From Gilvimarinus chinensis DSM 19667 (GTDB lineage: Bacteria > Pseudomonadota > Gammaproteobacteria > Pseudomonadales > Cellvibrionaceae), in NCBI RefSeq assembly GCF_000377745.1, contig NZ_KB898707.1, positions 1 to 64,000 of the forward strand: 64,000 bases of DNA. The letters are read 5' to 3'. The notes under the pieces were generated by a model. It made no database searches. It was not told where the DNA came from and was given only the letters and a program-made list of their open reading frames with translations. Shown piece after piece: positions 191 to 14,323 of the stretch (within the stretch, counting starts at the first letter, position 1; the number at the start of each line of letters is the position of its first letter). Position numbers and translations under genes: made by a program.

Positions 191-1339
191 ATGCAACAGC
201 AGATCACTGACCGTTTTGTATCGGTTTTCAGCAAAAATGCCACCGGCTTGTACTTCGCCCCAGGGCGGGTCAATGTGATTGGCGAACACACCGACTACAA
301 CGACGGCTTTGTGTTTCCCTGTGCGCTGGAGTTTGGCACCTACGTGGCCACCTCGGTGCGCGATGACAATGTCATACGGGTTTGCGCGGGCAACTTTGGC
401 GACGAGTACAACCAGTGGACGCTCAACGCTGATGTAACCACTGACGAAGCCTGCCTGTGGTCCAACTATCTGCGCGGTGTGTGCGCCATATTGCTGGCTC
501 AGGGCCACACATTAAAAGGCCTGGATGTCTACATCGAAGGCAATGTGCCCCGCGGTGCGGGCCTTAGCTCGTCGGCGTCTTTATCGGTTGCCTTTGCCAA
601 GGCCTTAAGCGACATCAACGACCTGGGTTTGACCGTCAGCGACCTTGCCCGCATTGCGCAATCGGCTGAAAACGATTTTGCCGGTTGTAGCTGCGGCATT
701 ATGGATCAACTGGCCTCAGCCGGCGGGAAAGAAGGACACGCGCTGCTGCTCGATTGTCGCGATCTGTCGTTTGATTTGGTGTCTATCCCCGACGAGCTGG
801 ATATTTTGATTATCGACTCGCGGGTTGAGCGCAATTTGGTGGGCAGTGAGTACAACGACCGCCGAGCCGATTGCGAGCGTGCCGCACAGGCGTTGGGTGT
901 GAGTATCCTGCGTGATGCCACGCTGGATATGTTAGAGCAAAAGCGCGAGCAGCTGGACGAGCTGGCCTACCGTCGTGCCCGTCACGTATTGACCGAAAAC
1001 GATCGTACCCAGCGCTGCGCCATTGCTCTAAGAACCGGCGATCTATCCGCGGTGTATCAAACCATGCGTGATTCGCATATCTCTATGCGCGACGACTTTG
1101 AGATTACCGTCCCCGAGATCGATTTTATCGTAGAGACGGTTGATGCTCAGTTGGATAACGATGGCGGTGTACGTATGACCGGTGGCGGCTTTGGTGGCTG
1201 TGTGGTGGCCTTGGTGCCCAACGATAAAGCACAGGCGATTGAGGCAGACGTTAAAGCAAAATACGCCCAGAAGTTTGCCAAAGAGCCCAACGTGTATCAC
1301 TGCAAAGCAAAAGACGGTGCGCGGGTACTCTACTCGTAA
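191..1339 (+). CDS. galK: galactokinase
   Basis: This 382-residue protein matches the usual galactokinase length. GHMP-kinase motifs are visible: the galactose signature GRVNVIGEHTDYNDG near residue 26, the ATP loop PRGAGLSSSASLSVA near 120, and the C-terminal motif GGGFGGCVVAL near 335. It phosphorylates D-galactose to galactose-1-phosphate for GalT. The ATG follows the galT stop by one base, which fixes the start and indicates coupling. A strong hairpin terminator lies about 50 bp after the stop. Together with galM downstream, it would consume the D-galactose half of agarose. Confidence 0.97.
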   Translation: MQQQITDRFVSVFSKNATGLYFAPGRVNVIGEHTDYNDGFVFPCALEFGTYVATSVRDDNVIRVCAGNFGDEYNQWTLNADVTTDEACLWSNYLRGVCAILLAQGHTLKGLDVYIEGNVPRGAGLSSSASLSVAFAKALSDINDLGLTVSDLARIAQSAENDFAGCSCGIMDQLASAGGKEGHALLLDCRDLSFDLVSIPDELDILIIDSRVERNLVGSEYNDRRADCERAAQALGVSILRDATLDMLEQKREQLDELAYRRARHVLTENDRTQRCAIALRTGDLSAVYQTMRDSHISMRDDFEITVPEIDFIVETVDAQLDNDGGVRMTGGGFGGCVVALVPNDKAQAIEADVKAKYAQKFAKEPNVYHCKAKDGARVLYS

Positions 1340-1390
1340 TTAATCCTGCGCCGCCAAGGCGGTGCAGCTGGTTGCGTCATAAGCCAAGCA

Positions 1391-1418
1391 AAAAAGCCAG
1401 CAAAAATGCTGGCTTTTT
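1391..1418. terminator. bidirectional intrinsic terminator between galK and the GH117 gene
   Basis: A perfect GCCAGC/GCTGGC stem closes a six-base loop (aaaaat). It is flanked by an A-tract on the left and a T-tract on the right, so it can end transcription from both sides. It sits between two convergent genes, galK (+) and the GH117 gene (-), which is where such a structure is expected. Confidence 0.85.
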
Positions 1419-1435
1419 TGTGTGATTAGCCCGGC

Positions 1436-2539
1436 TTATACGCCCGAGCCACCGGTTTGCTGGAAGGTGCCAGACTCCAGAACTTGGCGGCGGGCTTTGT
1501 ACTGACAAATGTAATTCCAGTTCCAGCTGGCATCGTACTTGTGGCACAGGCCCCACTCGATACCAGCCATAGCGTCGTCGGATTTTTCATAGCCGGGCTT
1601 ACGATACATGCCCATGGCCTCAGGGGCACCTTTAATATGAGACATAATGTCAAAGTTGACGCCGTCGTCGGCCCACTGGCAGGTATTTTTTTCGGGGCCG
1701 TCGGTGGTAAGGATGCAAGCCATGCCGTCGTTGTAGTGCCATACCGCCACCTCGTGACCGCTGTTGGTCACTGGGTTTAACGGCGACTTGGTGTAGGGTC
1801 CTAGAATGTTGTCGGCAATGGCAACCCCGTGTTTAATTTCGCGGCCGCCAAAGTTCATGCCTTCGCCCATGATCTCGCCTTTGTAGTACAGGTAGAACTG
1901 GCCTTTAAAAAACATCAGGCAAGGGTCGTGTACTTTGTGGCTGTCAAAATCGCCGCGCTCTTTCACGTGAAAGCGGTTGTCTTCGTCGCCATCCCACACG
2001 CCGTTGTCGGCAGGGCTTAAAATGGGGGCGTCAGACTTGCTCCAAGGGCCGTAAGGTGAGTCGCTGTGAGCGATGGCAATGTGTTCTTTGCTACGGTTTA
2101 GGTAAGGGGCTTGCACAACCTGATAGACGAGATAAAAACGGCCTTCGTGTTCGAGAACCTCCGGCGTGAAACAGGCGCGATCATCGTAGCGACCCTTTTC
2201 TCCGGGGACAACAGCAGGTCCTTCTTCCTTCCAGTCGTAGCCGTCTTTAGATGTGGCGTGCCAGACCTCTGTTTTGTCCCATGGGAAGACTTTATCTTCT
2301 GGGTTGTCACTGCCAAAGCCCACGGTTTCGCCTTCGCCTTTGGTGTAATAGACGTGAAACGTGCCATCAACTTGGATTACTGCGCTGGGATCGCGGCGAA
2401 TAACGCCTTCTTGATAGGCAAAATCACCGCCTAGTGGTGAAATATCGAATTCAAAGACCCAATTGGCATCGGTATTATCATACCCGCGTTCGATAGCGCG
2501 TAAGCTAGCTTTACTTAACGTAGTTTGAGAATCACTCAT
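1436..2539 (-). CDS. GH117 alpha-1,3-(3,6-anhydro)-L-galactosidase (neoagarobiose hydrolase)
   Basis: This 367-residue protein has no signal peptide, so it is likely cytoplasmic. The sequence is that of the GH117 five-bladed propeller family: [12 protein letters not shown] near the N-terminus, [42 protein letters not shown] and [12 protein letters not shown] recognise it as closely resembling the Saccharophagus neoagarobiose hydrolase. The N-terminal segment swaps between subunits in characterised dimers. Known members cleave neoagaro-oligosaccharides from the non-reducing end, releasing 3,6-anhydro-L-galactose. An AGGA ribosome site precedes the ATG. The gene is 15 bp downstream of a PfkB kinase and shares its promoter and operator at 3504. 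Confidence 0.94.
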
Positions 2540-2554
2540 AGAAAATCCTGCTGA

Positions 2555-3475
2555 TTAACCATAGATGGCTTTGGGAATACGAAATTTGTTTTTAGGGATT
2601 ATAGCGCCTTGATGCAAAAGCACTTGAGAAGATACCTCACAAGCGTATGCGATCGCTTGTTCAGCGCTATCGCCCTGTAATCGACGCGCGAGAAACCCTG
2701 CAGCGAATGAGTCGCCAGCGGCCGTTGCGTCAATCACCTGTTTTACGGGGACAACCTTAAACTGACCCTGTCCCTCTTTGCTGGCATAATGAATATTTCG
2801 GCTGCCGTCTTTTACGACAATATCTGTGCAGCCTAAGCCCTTAAGCCAGGTGATAGCTTGCTCTGGTTGTGAGTAACCGTATAGCGTGTGTAAATCATCC
2901 ATTCCGGGCAATGCGATGTCACTGAGAGCGAAGATTTTCCGATAACATTTTTTAGCGACTTCGGGGCAGTTCCATAATTTGGGGCGGTGGTTGGGATCAA
3001 AGACAACCACAGTACCATATTGTTTCCAAGTAGAAATTTGTGTAATCAACAACTCACGATCCGTTTCATCTAAAATCGCAAGACTGATACCGCTTAGATA
3101 AAATACGTCGGGCCTGGGTAGTTGTTTGGGTGGACTGAGCTTTAAGCAATGCTTAGCGGCTGAGTCATCACGCCAATACAGAAATTCGCGCTCGCCGGAT
3201 TCATCATTGCGAATGACATAGAGCCCTAGCATTTTGTCTGGATGGCGAGCTATCAACTGTGTGTTGACGTTCTCATTATGGAGTGCTTTGGTAAGTTGAG
3301 TGCTGAAAGGATCTCTGCCAACAGCGGTGTACATGTTGATGGTCAACTTTGAAGCTAAGCGAGACAGGTAAGTGGCCACACTGTAAACATCCCCCGCATA
3401 ACTTTGTTGAAACTGGGAGGCTGAGGAGCTCGACAGCTCCAACATGCATTCGCCAAACACGGTGATTTCCATCAT
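2555..3475 (-). CDS. PfkB-family sugar kinase, probable 2-keto-3-deoxygluconate/galactonate kinase
   Basis: This is a ribokinase-fold carbohydrate kinase of about 306 residues. The N-terminus MEITVFGECMLEL and the C-terminal ATP/anion-hole motif DATAAGDSFAAGFLA are diagnostic for PfkB. It is more similar to the kinase at 32207 (FGECMLEL, SGISLAILDETDRELL) than to the one at 17308. Family knowledge and context suggest phosphorylation of KDG or KDGal, but substrate is inferred. I start it at the ATG at 3475 (or 3472). The longer frame would begin at a TTG inside the operator palindrome, which is unlikely. It is followed by the GH117 gene in the same operon. Confidence 0.8.
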   Translation of the reverse strand: MMEITVFGECMLELSSSSASQFQQSYAGDVYSVATYLSRLASKLTINMYTAVGRDPFSTQLTKALHNENVNTQLIARHPDKMLGLYVIRNDESGEREFLYWRDDSAAKHCLKLSPPKQLPRPDVFYLSGISLAILDETDRELLITQISTWKQYGTVVVFDPNHRPKLWNCPEVAKKCYRKIFALSDIALPGMDDLHTLYGYSQPEQAITWLKGLGCTDIVVKDGSRNIHYASKEGQGQFKVVPVKQVIDATAAGDSFAAGFLARRLQGDSAEQAIAYACEVSSQVLLHQGAIIPKNKFRIPKAIYG

Positions 3476-3503
3476 ATCTGTACCATTTAAAACCAATCGT
3501 CTT

Positions 3504-3515
3504 ATTGTATACAAT
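3504..3515. promoter_or_regulatory. operator palindrome ATTGTATACAAT upstream of kinase-GH117 operon
   Basis: A perfect 12-bp palindrome lies about 30 bp upstream of the kinase start. The same 12-mer occurs at 11326 and 14312, with variants at 21432 and 21454. All are in leader regions of agar-locus operons. Such short TTGTATACAA palindromes are typical of FadR/FCD-type GntR regulators. The likely binder is the regulator encoded at 20750-21412. Confidence 0.75.
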
Positions 3516-3556
3516 TAACTGTTGACATGCGAGTTGAAGTTTTGCAAACTGAAGCT

Positions 3557-3736
3557 GTAGTTACTTGTCGGCGTGAAGAAACATTATGGGCACCTGGTTT
3601 CTTTGCGTTCTAAACTACCGATTAGTCGTGGAGTTATGGGCTCTCCTCACTGAAGCGACTAATTGAAGCAGATGCTTGTTTACGTGAGCACATTTCGTTG
3701 AGGCCACAGTTTGCTCAGAAGCTGTGGCCTTTTTTT
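3557..3736 (+). ncRNA. candidate structured RNA (sRNA or attenuator leader of galM)
   Basis: Three successive hairpins are readable on the plus strand. Hairpin 1 pairs AAGAAAC (3576-3582) with GTTTCTT (3597-3603). Hairpin 2 pairs ATTAGTCG (3621-3628) with CGACTAAT (3656-3663), with an inner GGAG/CTCC stem. Hairpin 3 is an intrinsic terminator (3701-3736). The loops of hairpins 1 and 2 share the heptamer TTATGGG. A TTGACA box at 3522-3527 precedes the structure; a weak -10-like CAAACT follows 17 bp later. No ORF covers the segment. It could be a free small RNA or a terminated leader of galM, whose ATG is 72 bp downstream. I know no matching RNA family. Confidence 0.5.
3701..3736 (+). terminator. 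intrinsic terminator upstream of galM
   Basis: A perfect nine-base-pair stem (AGGCCACAG / CTGTGGCCT) with a 12-base loop is followed by seven Ts. It is oriented plus and lies 72 bp before galM, with no plus-strand protein gene ending upstream of it. This is why the preceding 150 bp are read as an RNA gene or an attenuated leader. Confidence 0.85.
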
Positions 3737-3808
3737 ATTCCTATGGAATAAGGCTGGAACTCCTCAGTAAGACAATGTTAAATAAGCACCGATAACAAGA
3801 GGTGCAAA

Positions 3809-4852
3809 ATGGAAAAAAGTTTTTACGGTAAATTACCTTGCGGTGCTAAGGTGCATGAGTACACGTTGAGTAATGCCAACGGCATGAAAGTTAGCATTAT
3901 TGATTACGGAGCTATCATCACTGGAATTTATGCGCCCAAGGACAATGCAAAGACTGTTAATTTGGTGCTTGGCTACGATAGCCTGGAAGGTTATCTCAAA
4001 GGCAGTTCCTACCTGGGGGCTGTGGTGGGCCGAGTGGCCAATCGGATTGCTTCAGGGGGTTTTTCAATTCAGGGTAACCGCTACCAATTAGAGGTGAATA
4101 ACGGCCCCAATCATTTGCACGGTGGTTTGTGTGGCTTTGATAAAAAACTCTGGCAAGCACAATATTCCAGCTCGCAATCTCAACAACTACGTTTAGCTTT
4201 GGTCAGCGAAGAAGGGGATCAAGGGTATCCGGGTCATTTGGCGGTCGAGGTGGTTTATACTTTTAATGATAATAATGAGCTTCGGATAGACTACCGTGGC
4301 GAATGCACTAAAGCGGCGACGCCGGTCAATTTAACTCAGCACAGTTATTTTAACCTGGGCGGCGCAGGTACTATTGGTCGCCACGAGTTACAAGTATTTG
4401 CACAGCGCTATACGCCCATTAACGGCAATGGCATTCCGTTGGGGTATCTGGCGGATGTAGCGGGGCGGCCCCTGGATTTTCGCCAAGCGCGAAAGCTGAA
4501 TGAAGTGCTTAACCTCGGCGACTCGGAAGTTCAAGAGGCTGGAGGCGTCGATCACAATTTTGTCATCGACCAAGATACGTCCAATAAACTGGCCCCGGTA
4601 GCGATATTGACGGACCCCGACACTGGTCGACGGATGAGGGTATTCTCCACTCAGCCGGGGGTTCAGGTTTATACGGGAAATTTTTTACACCAGGACGCGG
4701 CCGCGTCGTTACAAGCTTTTCCCCGTTATGGAGCGGTTTGTCTGGAGTGCCAGGGTTTTCCCGATGCGGTCAATCACCCGGACTTTCCATCGGTGGTGGT
4801 ACAACCCGGGCAGACCTATCGTGAGACAACCCTGTATCGCTTTGAGGTATAA
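3809..4852 (+). CDS. galM: aldose 1-epimerase (mutarotase)
   Basis: This 347-residue cytoplasmic protein has the standard GalM length. The catalytic histidine and glutamate motifs are present: NHLHGG near residue 104, TQHSYFNLGG near 177, GVDHNFV near 250 and LECQGFPDAVNHPDFPS near 312. It interconverts the alpha and beta anomers of galactose or glucose, supplying the alpha form to galactokinase. AGAGGTG precedes the ATG as ribosome site. It stands alone on the plus strand between two minus-strand agar operons and is preceded by a terminator-ended structured RNA. No clear terminator is seen in the 143 bp separating it from the convergent lactonase gene. Confidence 0.95.
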   Translation: MEKSFYGKLPCGAKVHEYTLSNANGMKVSIIDYGAIITGIYAPKDNAKTVNLVLGYDSLEGYLKGSSYLGAVVGRVANRIASGGFSIQGNRYQLEVNNGPNHLHGGLCGFDKKLWQAQYSSSQSQQLRLALVSEEGDQGYPGHLAVEVVYTFNDNNELRIDYRGECTKAATPVNLTQHSYFNLGGAGTIGRHELQVFAQRYTPINGNGIPLGYLADVAGRPLDFRQARKLNEVLNLGDSEVQEAGGVDHNFVIDQDTSNKLAPVAILTDPDTGRRMRVFSTQPGVQVYTGNFLHQDAAASLQAFPRYGAVCLECQGFPDAVNHPDFPSVVVQPGQTYRETTLYRFEV

Positions 4853-4995
4853 GCTGGGTGTCGTCGATAACTAACCTCGGCGGTAAATAAGAACCAGTGC
4901 AGTGTCTTGTGGGCGCTACTTGCAAGTGTGCATTTTAACTCGACAATTAAATTTGCCAGTTTGATCGCCACCTGAAAGCAGCACTCGAAATCAAG

Positions 4996-6009
4996 CTAAG
5001 GTTTTAACTTCAAACGTAAAAGCGCATCGTGGGCGGTGATGTACAGATGCTGCTCGCGGCCATCAAGAGCGCAGTTGGCGGTCAGCCTTCCGGTGTGAAT
5101 TATCGCTAGAAGTTCAGCCTGCTCGGTGAACACCCAAACGCCCCCTGGACCTGTGGCAAAAATGGTGCCGTCACGAGCGACGGCCATGCCATCGGGAACA
5201 CCTGGGCCGAGATTACGCACTTGACGTGCATCAAAAAATACTCGCTTATTATCCAGCCCGCCACTGCTGTTAATGTCGTAGGCTAGCCATACGGGTTCGT
5301 CTTTGTCTGACACTGCGACGATCAAAGTCTGCTCGTCGTTAACTAGGGCGATGCCATTGGGCGCTGCTACCGCATTGTCCAGCAATGTCAGTGTGCCATC
5401 ACTTTCCAAGGCAAAAATACCGTTAAACTCCAGTTCGCGTCGCGGATCACTATTACCTTCGGCCAGCCCATAAGGAGGGTCAGTGAAGTACAATCGGCCT
5501 TTGCTGTCCAGTACCGCATCATTAGGGCTGTTTAGGCGCTTGCCCTGATAGCGCTGCGCCAGTGGTTTAAAATGCGCGGCGGGTGCTTGCAAAGGCGCTT
5601 GCATGACGGCCACGCGGCGGTCACCCTGTTGCAAGGCAATAAGTTCTCCTGAGTGTGAGAGCAGCAGGCCGTTAGAGCCTCCTTTGTCGTCTGAAGGGGT
5701 GAGACCGGTAGCCCCTGAAGGTTGAAGGTATAACTCAGTACCCTTACCCGGTGTATACTTTTCAATCAAGTTGTTCGGTATGTCGGAGAACAGCAAATAG
5801 CCATCGTCTATCCAAAGTGGCCCCTCTGTCCAAGCATAGCCCGTGGCGAGCACTTCGATTTTGGCGTTCGGATTAATTCGCTTCAGGGCGCTCGGGTCGT
5901 AGATAGTGATATCGGCGTATTTTTCAATTGTGGCGGGAGCCACATGCTCAGGCGTGCTGGTGCATGCGGTGAACAGGCATGCGAATGCGACATAAAACAA
6001 AATCTTCAT
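4996..6009 (-). CDS. SMP-30/gluconolactonase-family lipoprotein
   Basis: The protein is about 337 residues. It starts with MKILFYVAFACLFTAC, a lipoprotein signal with the lipid-anchored cysteine at the end of the stretch. The body is an SMP-30/gluconolactonase beta-propeller: ATGYAWTEGPLWIDDGYLLFSDI, RLNSPNDAVLDSKGRLYFTDPPYGL and GVPDGMAVARDGTIFATGPGGVWVF. These residues supply the metal-binding Glu, Asn and Asp. Family members hydrolyse sugar-acid lactones. A periplasmic aldonolactonase role is inferred; the substrate is unknown. The chosen ATG overlaps the sapC stop as ATGA, giving strong coupling; the frame extends nine codons further upstream without support. Confidence 0.85.
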   Translation of the reverse strand: MKILFYVAFACLFTACTSTPEHVAPATIEKYADITIYDPSALKRINPNAKIEVLATGYAWTEGPLWIDDGYLLFSDIPNNLIEKYTPGKGTELYLQPSGATGLTPSDDKGGSNGLLLSHSGELIALQQGDRRVAVMQAPLQAPAAHFKPLAQRYQGKRLNSPNDAVLDSKGRLYFTDPPYGLAEGNSDPRRELEFNGIFALESDGTLTLLDNAVAAPNGIALVNDEQTLIVAVSDKDEPVWLAYDINSSGGLDNKRVFFDARQVRNLGPGVPDGMAVARDGTIFATGPGGVWVFTEQAELLAIIHTGRLTANCALDGREQHLYITAHDALLRLKLKP

Positions 6010-6722
6010 TGCGAGGGCTCCTGCGCGTTTTTCCAATCCACTAATTTGCGAATATGCCCCAGCGATGCCAGTAGATAGTGGCAGGCGTTTAAATAGCCTC
6101 GCTCGTGCACTGTTTGCAGGTTTTTTCCCTGTAGTGCGCTGAGTTTTTCTGCACTGACACTATACAGGCCCTGATAAGTTTGCTTTTGACCGCTGGCGAA
6201 GGCGATATCGAGCTTTATTGGTTCCAGCAGCGCAAGCTCGGTTAGTGTTTGAACAAAAGCCTGGGAGGCTTGTATACCGCCCATAAGTGCTCCCAGTAGC
6301 TGCTGAGTATTTTGCAAATATTGGCTGTTCGTGCCATCAGTGTTAAACAGCGGTTCGCCTTGTTCTTTGTTTACTCGTGCGCTGTCCAAATCTATGAGCA
6401 GGTTGCCGCGGCCTTGCTGGTTTTGTGCAGTAACCGAAACAAATGGTTGTCGGCGAATGTGCAGTGGTATGTAAGACGCGCGCCACTGATCTTGTTGTAG
6501 ATATAGGTTTTCGTTATTTTCAAAGCCAAGCAGGGCGTAGAGGCCAAAGTGACCGGTTTGTTCATCCTTCATTAAAGCGCAGGGGTAGTCTAGCACCAGA
6601 GACTGAAGCTCGGTTGCGACTATCGGAGTCAGGTGAACATTTTCTCCGTACTCTTTGCCGTGGTGGGTGATTATACGCAGTTCGCTGTGTTGATCTTTGT
6701 CTAAAGGAACTAGATTCGTCAC
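6006..6722 (-). CDS. SapC-family protein
   Basis: This 238-residue protein resembles the SapC family (named from Caulobacter/Campylobacter S-layer-associated proteins): N-terminal LVPLDKDQHSELRI, then HVTPIVATEL-like, YPCALMKDEQTGHFGLYALLGFENNENLYL, and FVSV near residue 95. It has no signal peptide or membrane segment. The biochemical role of the family is not established. SapC genes recur beside TonB-dependent receptors and tryptophan-halogenase-like flavoproteins in polysaccharide loci, as here. It lies 20 bp downstream of the halogenase and overlaps the lactonase start by four bases, so the three form one operon. Confidence 0.8.
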   Translation of the reverse strand: MTNLVPLDKDQHSELRIITHHGKEYGENVHLTPIVATELQSLVLDYPCALMKDEQTGHFGLYALLGFENNENLYLQQDQWRASYIPLHIRRQPFVSVTAQNQQGRGNLLIDLDSARVNKEQGEPLFNTDGTNSQYLQNTQQLLGALMGGIQASQAFVQTLTELALLEPIKLDIAFASGQKQTYQGLYSVSAEKLSALQGKNLQTVHERGYLNACHYLLASLGHIRKLVDWKNAQEPSQ

Positions 6723-6742
6723 GAAAGTCTCCTGATGTGTTG

Positions 6743-8296
6743 TTATACCGTTGCCAGACCATGGCGGTAAATTTTATTAATTAGCTCGCGATTGCCCGGG
6801 AGAACAGATGCGAGTTTTTGTGTCATCTCAATATTTTTGGCAAAGGCTTGTTTGGCCAGTTGTTTTTGTTGCGCCGACAGGCCAGCGGGGTGGGCTTGGG
6901 TGTGAAACCCCATGCCGTAGAGTACGTACTGATAGCTGGCCGCCGGGAAGACCTCTGTGGCATGGTCAAAATCGTTATCCCAGGGTGGGTGATAGCGCCA
7001 TAGCTCAATCAGTTCGTGTAGGCTATCGGGAATGCTAACAGGGTCACGATTATCAATCCAGAAGTCATTGTCGTCGCGCACTGTGAGCATATAGTGCAGC
7101 TTGAGAAAGTCGATAATGCGCTCCCAGCGATAGTGAAATGTCCGGTTAAATCGCCTCGCGACGGTATCCATAACGGCTCGATTAGCCGGTAGTTGGCTGG
7201 CAATAAAGTCCGCAGAAATTTCCACGAGTACTAACGCCGACGCCTCGAGTGGTTCGAGAAATCCGGCAGACAAACCCACAGCGACACAGTTCTTGTGCCA
7301 GAATTTTTCGCGGTGGCCGGGCGTAATCGGTATTTCCCGTACGCTTAAATTATCCAGCTTGTGGCCTGTCTGTGCGGCGTACTCGGCGAGCTCACGATAA
7401 GCGCTGTCGCGGTCGGTATAACGGCTGGCAAAAACATGCCCAACACCACGTCTCGACGCTAAACCAATGTCCCAAATCCAGCCAGCGCTCTGTGCGGTGG
7501 AAATGGTGTGCGAGGCAATTTCGGTATCGGGCTGCTGATAAGGGAGATGAACTGCCAAAGCTGTATCGGCAAATAAAATGTCGCTGCAGGATTTAAATGG
7601 TATTTGATAGTGCTCCCCCAACAATTTTGACTTGAAGCCTGTGCAGTCAATGAATAAATCCGCCGCTAGTTCAGCGCCAGACTCTGTTAGCAAAGCACTT
7701 ATGTCGCCATTGTTAGCAGTTTTAATGCCCACGACTTCATCGAGTATGTGCTGCACACCGAGAGTCTCGGTACAGTGTCGTGTTAAAAAGTTGGAGAAAG
7801 CTCCGGCATCCAGGTGGTAGGCGTAATTGGCTAGCCCTTGATACTCGGGGGTAGTAATCATTTTAGGGGCCAGAGAGCGTTCGCATAGTGCATCTTGCGG
7901 GCACACGGCCTGTGAAAAACTGGTACCTCTGGGTTGTACTTGCCAATGAGGTGCGAGATTAATATGGTTAAACCCCTGCGGCAAAATCAGTGGATGATAG
8001 TAAGCATCTTCTGTTTTGCCTGTATGCCAGCGCGCGAATTTGGCACCTTGTTTAAAGGATACGTGGCATTCGCGGATAAAATCGGTTTCGCGCACGCCCA
8101 TTTTCTTTAGTGTATTGCGCATAGTTGGCCAGGTTCCCTCACCGACGCCGACGATGGGGATATTGGGTGATTCAATTAAGGTGACTTTCACCGGCTTTTC
8201 TTGGGTAGCGTTCAGGCGCGCGGCGATGACTCCGGCGCTAAGCCAACCGGCTGTCCCACCACCGACAATGACAATAGATTGAATAGGCTGCTGCAT
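6743..8296 (-). CDS. tryptophan-halogenase-family flavoprotein
   Basis: This 517-residue protein begins with the FAD-binding Rossmann motif IVIVGGGTAGWLSAGVIAARL. It retains the conserved lysine region SFKQGAKFARW near residue 85 and the GVGEGTWPTM motif near 52. The halogenase WxWxIP motif appears as GWIWDIGL, so the proline is replaced. Its partner halogenases chlorinate or brominate tryptophan using FADH2. Members sitting next to TBDRs and SapC in polysaccharide loci have no proven substrate, so 'halogenase' is a family label here. A terminator separates it from the upstream TBDR, so expression probably depends on read-through or a weak promoter in about 40 bp. Confidence 0.85.
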   Translation of the reverse strand: MQQPIQSIVIVGGGTAGWLSAGVIAARLNATQEKPVKVTLIESPNIPIVGVGEGTWPTMRNTLKKMGVRETDFIRECHVSFKQGAKFARWHTGKTEDAYYHPLILPQGFNHINLAPHWQVQPRGTSFSQAVCPQDALCERSLAPKMITTPEYQGLANYAYHLDAGAFSNFLTRHCTETLGVQHILDEVVGIKTANNGDISALLTESGAELAADLFIDCTGFKSKLLGEHYQIPFKSCSDILFADTALAVHLPYQQPDTEIASHTISTAQSAGWIWDIGLASRRGVGHVFASRYTDRDSAYRELAEYAAQTGHKLDNLSVREIPITPGHREKFWHKNCVAVGLSAGFLEPLEASALVLVEISADFIASQLPANRAVMDTVARRFNRTFHYRWERIIDFLKLHYMLTVRDDNDFWIDNRDPVSIPDSLHELIELWRYHPPWDNDFDHATEVFPAASYQYVLYGMGFHTQAHPAGLSAQQKQLAKQAFAKNIEMTQKLASVLPGNRELINKIYRHGLATV

Positions 8297-11160: not shown

Positions 11161-11325
11161 TTATAGCTCTCCCTTGTCAGGTGATTATTGTATTGGTGTT
11201 GCAATGCACGTCAGTTTTCACTGTCGTGTTTACGCTCATCCCGTGCTAAAGAGCGTTTTCGCCAGAATATGCGGATTCACAGCTTTGGTTATGATCTAGC
11301 CATATAAACAGTATGTCAACATAAT

Positions 11326-11337
11326 ATTGTATACAAT
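11326..11337. promoter_or_regulatory. operator palindrome ATTGTATACAAT upstream of TBDR 1
   Basis: An exact copy of the 12-bp palindrome seen at 3504 and 14312 lies 166 bp upstream of the TBDR 1 start. A TTGACA-like box on the minus strand follows within 20 bp. The 247-bp leader between the two receptors holds no other gene. Confidence 0.75.
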
Positions 11338-14209: not shown

Positions 14210-14311
14210 CTACAGCTCTCCTCTTAAGTGCTGATAGGGGGTTCTTAGTAATAAATAGGGTTTACTAGAAGTGTATTTTTGTTATAGAGGGGGATTTAGC
14301 CACCCGGCATT

Positions 14312-14323
14312 ATTGTATACAAT
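14312..14323. promoter_or_regulatory. operator palindrome ATTGTATACAAT upstream of TBDR 2
   Basis: The exact 12-mer lies between the GH50 stop and the TBDR 2 start. On the minus strand the flank CTGTTA-ATTGTATACAAT-AAT resembles that of the site at 3504 (CAGTTA-...-AAG), extending the conservation beyond the core. TACAAT within the site is a good -10 match, with TTACAA 16 bp upstream, so a bound repressor would cover the promoter. Confidence 0.75.

Follow-up and report, generated by a model that had tools for sequence, protein, structure and literature searches.

Regulation of polysaccharide utilisation in marine bacteria has been described mostly in terms of transcription factors. Small RNAs dedicated to sugars are well established in the enterobacteria, where SgrS, Spot 42 and ChiX are all Hfq-dependent. 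In Bacteroides thetaiotaomicron, GibS is an intergenic small RNA linked to sugar availability and located at a carbohydrate-gene locus; it is described as conserved in close relatives and thought to tune metabolic mRNAs by base pairing (PMC7366714). Here we analyse an element at the agar locus of Gilvimarinus chinensis (genome G000) that is probably a new small RNA of known type, with limited spread.

In the window, the whole 64,000-nt stretch of G000 that was analysed, this structured element occupies positions 3552-3736 of the plus strand, where two stem-loops are followed by a linker and then by a strong intrinsic terminator. It is flanked upstream by a PfkB-family kinase gene (2555-3514, minus strand) and followed by galM, encoding aldose 1-epimerase (3809-4852, plus strand; Pfam PF01263), which begins 72 nt past the terminator; between these genes the plus strand carries, in order, an operator, a TTGACA box, hairpins 1 and 2, the linker and the terminator. 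The preliminary description had placed an agar operator next to the element with TTGACA seven bases away, and this is the arrangement we find: the palindrome TTGTATACAA (3505-3514, no strand assigned), an operator of an agar-linked regulon that lies within the 14-mer TTATTGTATACAAT (3502-3515), is followed by a perfect -35 box (3522-3527, plus strand) beginning 7 nt past it. After a 17-nt spacer comes a presumed -10 box, CAAACT (3545-3550, plus strand), which is weak (3 of 6 consensus positions). A consensus-based promoter scan did not report this -10 box; it reported a different candidate, overlapping the operator, that scores better than the TTGACA/CAAACT promoter and would give the same RNA with a start near 3522.

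The remaining features all lie on the plus strand. Hairpin 1 (3570-3609) is enclosed by a closing helix (3557-3561 paired with 3614-3618), the unit as a whole spanning 3557-3618, and hairpin 2 follows directly at 3619-3665. Each contains a copy of the heptamer TTATGGG (3584-3590 and 3634-3640), which had been described as presented in both loops; in the predicted fold the first copy does occupy the open loop of hairpin 1, while the second is only partly open, its GGG being able to pair with CU-rich bases on the 3' side. The linker (3666-3699) is strongly conserved between G000 and its congener G007, is a candidate pairing region, and carries TGAGC (3685-3689), the third copy in this RNA of a UGRGC motif that is considered below. 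It leads into the intrinsic terminator at 3700-3736, the putative 3' end of the RNA, in which 13 pairs are followed by a T run giving at least 7 U, so that a terminator does stand behind the stem-loops as first described. The accompanying statement that no upstream plus-strand gene needs this terminator holds as well, since the closest such gene, galK, ends at 1339 and two minus-strand genes intervene. The neighbouring gene at 1436-2539 is one that we take to be GH117-like; Pfam gives GH43 and GH32N.

A 221-nt stretch containing the element is predicted to fold more stably than 198 of 200 dinucleotide-shuffled versions (z -2.75); the body left after removal of the terminator is equalled or surpassed by 50 of 500. 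Fold energy alone is therefore weak evidence, because the terminator supplies much of it. A leader peptide was also considered and rejected: both TTATGGG copies contain ATG GGC, the first of which opens a 26-codon frame, no good ribosome site was seen, and the frames of the relatives, read by eye, vary in length and sequence.

The 14-mer recurs exactly at 14310-14323 and with one mismatch at 11324-11337, these sites preceding two TonB-type receptor genes. Allowing up to three mismatches gives 11 matches over the whole window against 6.4 expected, and 7 of 100 shuffles have as many; because this looser set is not enriched, only near-exact sites were relied on. The composite of operator plus TTGACA, again at up to three mismatches, has 49 matches spread over 24 of 144 family genomes, in which the reversed pattern has 5. 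Several of these composite matches precede TonB-receptor-like reading frames, and some point away from a gene, as at G000:C2:170990, where the operator belongs to a gene on the other strand. The proposal that the element is controlled together with agar genes is supported by the shared operator and -35 arrangement.

A DNA search of 58 genomes returned one match besides G000 itself, in G007 (71% identity, E 4.4e-16), where the copy shares both place and neighbours, with the GH117-like gene before it and galM after. Forty-six pairs of the G000/G007 consensus hold in both sequences, six of them changed on both sides and none broken; 9 of 500 shuffles reach this pair-change score, a control to be read with the caution that the tested structure was itself derived from the G000 and G007 sequences. 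When the pairing partners are slid by 1-3 columns, only 0-2 double-changed pairs are seen. In hairpin 2 the ten outer pairs include four changed on both sides, one changed on one side and none broken, and the G007 loop reads TTGGC. With the terminator left out, the alignment of the two sequences is equalled by 1 of 1000 column shuffles on the plus strand and by 43 of 1000 on the minus-strand counterpart, and no shuffle of 1000 folds as well when the alignment is anchored on the loop motif. Judged by these comparisons the element is more than a chance structure, and its G007 homologue keeps the predicted fold through paired changes.

Two further genomes of the genus, G. agarilyticus JEA5 (G002) and G. 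polysaccharolyticus YN3 (G006), have at the same place the same operator, TTGACA at the same spacing, a stretch of 186-190 nt and a similar terminator. A covariance model built from G000 and G007 finds the G006 counterpart with an E value of 1.6e-6; with strict filters it misses the G002 counterpart, and with laxer filters it finds it at E 0.0014 over 1.04 Mb. We found no covariation support for a fold of the G002/G006 pair, which 273 of 1000 shuffles matched (653 of 1000 after alignment on the motif), or for all four Gilvimarinus sequences together (115 of 500 shuffles, and 269 of 1000 aligned on the motif). Compensatory change, which the preliminary description had set in advance as the test by which its proposal could fail, is thus present in the G000/G007 pair and was not found in the G002/G006 pair. 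The TTATGGG heptamer itself is not conserved among these relatives. What the four RNAs have in common is the core T-N-TGGGCA in the loop of the first hairpin and three UGRGC motifs per RNA, a number matched by 0-4 of 500 shuffles in each of the four, for a motif that was picked after the sequences had been inspected. From RNA to RNA the two outer copies keep similar positions, and the middle copy does not.

Outside the genus, Marinimicrobium agarilyticum DSM 16975 (G026) has the operator and TTGACA, then a terminator about 200 nt on, beside kinase and GH117-like genes, and this element corresponds to those of Gilvimarinus in position and promoter. The sequence and spacing of operator and TTGACA are the same in the counterparts of G007, G002, G006 and G026, and all four have terminators resembling that of G000. 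The body of the G026 element (L037 5990-6181) is exceptionally stable, none of 500 shuffles folding as well (z -6.2). It forms four or five strong hairpins and has little sequence in common with the Gilvimarinus RNAs. A profile of the four Gilvimarinus 3' ends matches G026 at E 0.37, behind a chance match at 0.25, and no UGRGC motif occurs in the G026 counterpart.

The spread of the arrangement appears narrow. Of 144 family genomes, 14 have a GH117-like gene with 70% identity or more. Five of the 14 carry the element, and in the remaining nine the surroundings of that gene showed no operator and -35 box followed by a terminator. Among 80 of 193 GH117-like loci in the genome collection, an operator and -35 box followed by a strong terminator was found in three, those of G006, G026 and G002. 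Within a sample of 390 genomes of the order that left out G006 and G007, G000 and G002 were the only ones to match a tighter promoter pattern exactly, and with two or three mismatches it was about as common as its reversed control in the same 390 genomes. DNA searches of 144 genomes gave only G006 as a convincing match to the G002 version and nothing convincing for the G026 version. The terminator part of the G002 RNA is also matched, at about 2e-4 over 35-39 nt, in two genomes of another genus (G016:C76:9672-9706 and G090:C21:830-868; L165, L166).

Comparison of the locus versions (window positions 191-8296 and L035, L036 and L038) showed 92-95% identity among G000, G002 and G007 over galK and the GH117-like gene, which place these three genomes together. 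Over galM, SGL and genes that are presumably SapC-like and halogenase-like, G000 and G007 share 67-79% identity and G002 and G006 58-76%, with 45-69% across these pairs. The version of the RNA follows the galM-side block and not the galK/GH117-like block, and both diverged versions of the locus keep an RNA of the same design. The existence of two versions of the galM-to-halogenase block behind a near-constant galK/GH117-like block suggests, from sequence comparison, recombination near the RNA gene.

Two roles had been put forward for the element, a small RNA co-controlled with the agar genes and a terminator-gated leader of galM, and we on balance favour the former, as a regulon-controlled and probably Hfq-dependent small RNA of about 180 nt. 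In the leader alternative, its chief rival, the regulated promoter serves galM, and leader and terminator together set how much polymerase reaches it. In its favour, each of the four Gilvimarinus genomes with the element has galM after it (4 of 5 genomes when G026 is included), about 70 nt on, on the same strand and behind the same regulated promoter, and the RNA subtype goes with the galM-side genes. A switching leader is nevertheless disfavoured, since in the five RNAs the 5' arm of the terminator has no better upstream pairing partner than in shuffles (310-460 of 500), so that no antiterminator was found. In G026, moreover, the element is followed by an oppositely oriented sugar-transporter gene, and no galM was found in the 21-kb stretch around the counterpart. 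The 15 galM copies in nine genomes point the same way: operator, TTGACA and terminator stand at constant places only in the four agar-locus copies, and the other 11 have no operator within 450 nt and no model match, some terminator-like site being present within 450 nt upstream in 5 of the 11. The element is therefore tied to the agar locus and not to galM as such. It is because it tracks this locus (4 of 15 galM copies), because the G026 counterpart has no galM after it and because no antiterminator was found that we prefer the small-RNA reading, and we consider the galM leader rather unlikely.

Two other explanations were weighed, neither of which we think probable. That the stretch is short, untranslated and has no function of its own, with a terminator at its end that reduces galM expression, would accord with its restriction to five genomes, with the absence of targets from our scan and with the unexceptional fold of the body in G000 (50 of 500 shuffles). 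Between G000 and G007, however, hairpin 2 shows compensatory changes and the 3' linker is conserved, which tells against it, as does retention of the arrangement in two deeply diverged locus versions, and we regard it as improbable. A decoy whose repeated UGRGC loops capture a protein, much as GGA does in CsrB-type RNAs, seems to us very improbable. It would explain why three UGRGC motifs persist in each RNA of four genomes although the stems diverge, and a near-identical agarase-type leader of the same regulon also contains TGGGCA. The motif was chosen post hoc, however, its middle copy is not constant in place and G026 has none; we know of no protein that binds it, and where a CsrB- or RsmZ-type decoy would be expected to have many GGA loops, the body of this RNA, read from its sequence, has one GGA.

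The agarase-type gene to which that leader belongs is preceded, from operator to start, by some 190 nt that are nearly identical in the four Gilvimarinus genomes (L034 about 1766-1990; L039 about 6660-6884, minus strand; matching parts of L040 and L042). This leader is far better conserved than the RNA on the galM side, no Rfam family matches it, and it may be a cis-acting element.

For the small RNA that we favour, the computed basis comprises the operator and -35 box, the terminator, a position that five genomes keep, pairs with compensatory changes between two of the genomes, and an hfq gene, which is present in 5 of 5 genomes. A regulator binding TTGTATACAA would control the promoter that begins with TTGACA at 3522, and transcription would start near 3556 and end at the terminator at 3736. 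A terminal U run together with a U-rich stretch before the terminator is a trait of Hfq-dependent RNAs, and the element has both; the RNA would then be held by Hfq and would act in trans on other mRNAs through the accessible UGRGC of loop 1 and the linker. Made while the agar regulon is on, it could form a post-transcriptional arm of agar utilisation. We put forward more tentatively, as possible but doubtful, that this arm is a dedicated one in which the repeated UGRGC motifs are docking sites for mRNAs, either from the regulon or from competing sugar systems, or else for an RNA-binding protein, the stems drifting while the motif stays.

Predicted pairing with gene leaders does not single out such mRNAs in the portion of the genome scanned, 79 G000 genes in 124 kb, or about 3% of the genome, with orthologues included where present: the mean energy was -4.50 against -4.64 for shuffled leaders, no better than chance. 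The best predicted target (position 68599 in the joined stretch) pairs with an energy of -12.8 and is expected 0.33 times by chance, and those ranked 2-4 are each expected about 2 times. The agarase-type leader gave inconsistent results as a pairing target, being equalled by 2 of 60 shuffles in G007 and by 44, 55 and 59 of 60 in G000, G002 and G006, respectively. Rfam 15 gave no match in the window at the gathering score, the weak matches (E up to 10) lying far below the cut-offs; other sub-threshold hits, at L002 1-115, fall outside the RNA. A literature search in which subscription journals were thinly covered yielded no paper that connects an RNA of this sort with Gilvimarinus, with agar utilisation or with Cellvibrionaceae.

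With the enterobacterial RNAs SgrS, Spot 42 and ChiX the element shares a terminator with a long U run, a U-rich stretch before it and a promoter apparently under a metabolic regulator, but none of the three is among its weak, sub-threshold Rfam matches. Like attenuation leaders and riboswitches, it is a structured RNA whose terminator precedes a metabolic gene, and it differs from them in that antiterminator pairing was not found and that the G026 counterpart has no galM downstream. The resemblance to GibS lies in an intergenic position at a carbohydrate-gene locus and in conservation among close relatives. GibS is described as having an unstructured 5' seed, tested targets and induction by N-acetylglucosamine (PMC7366714), whereas both hairpins of the G000 element are strong and its host is a gammaproteobacterium with Hfq. 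If the small-RNA reading is right, agar-degrading gammaproteobacteria would tune their agar pathway post-transcriptionally too, as Bacteroides does with GibS.
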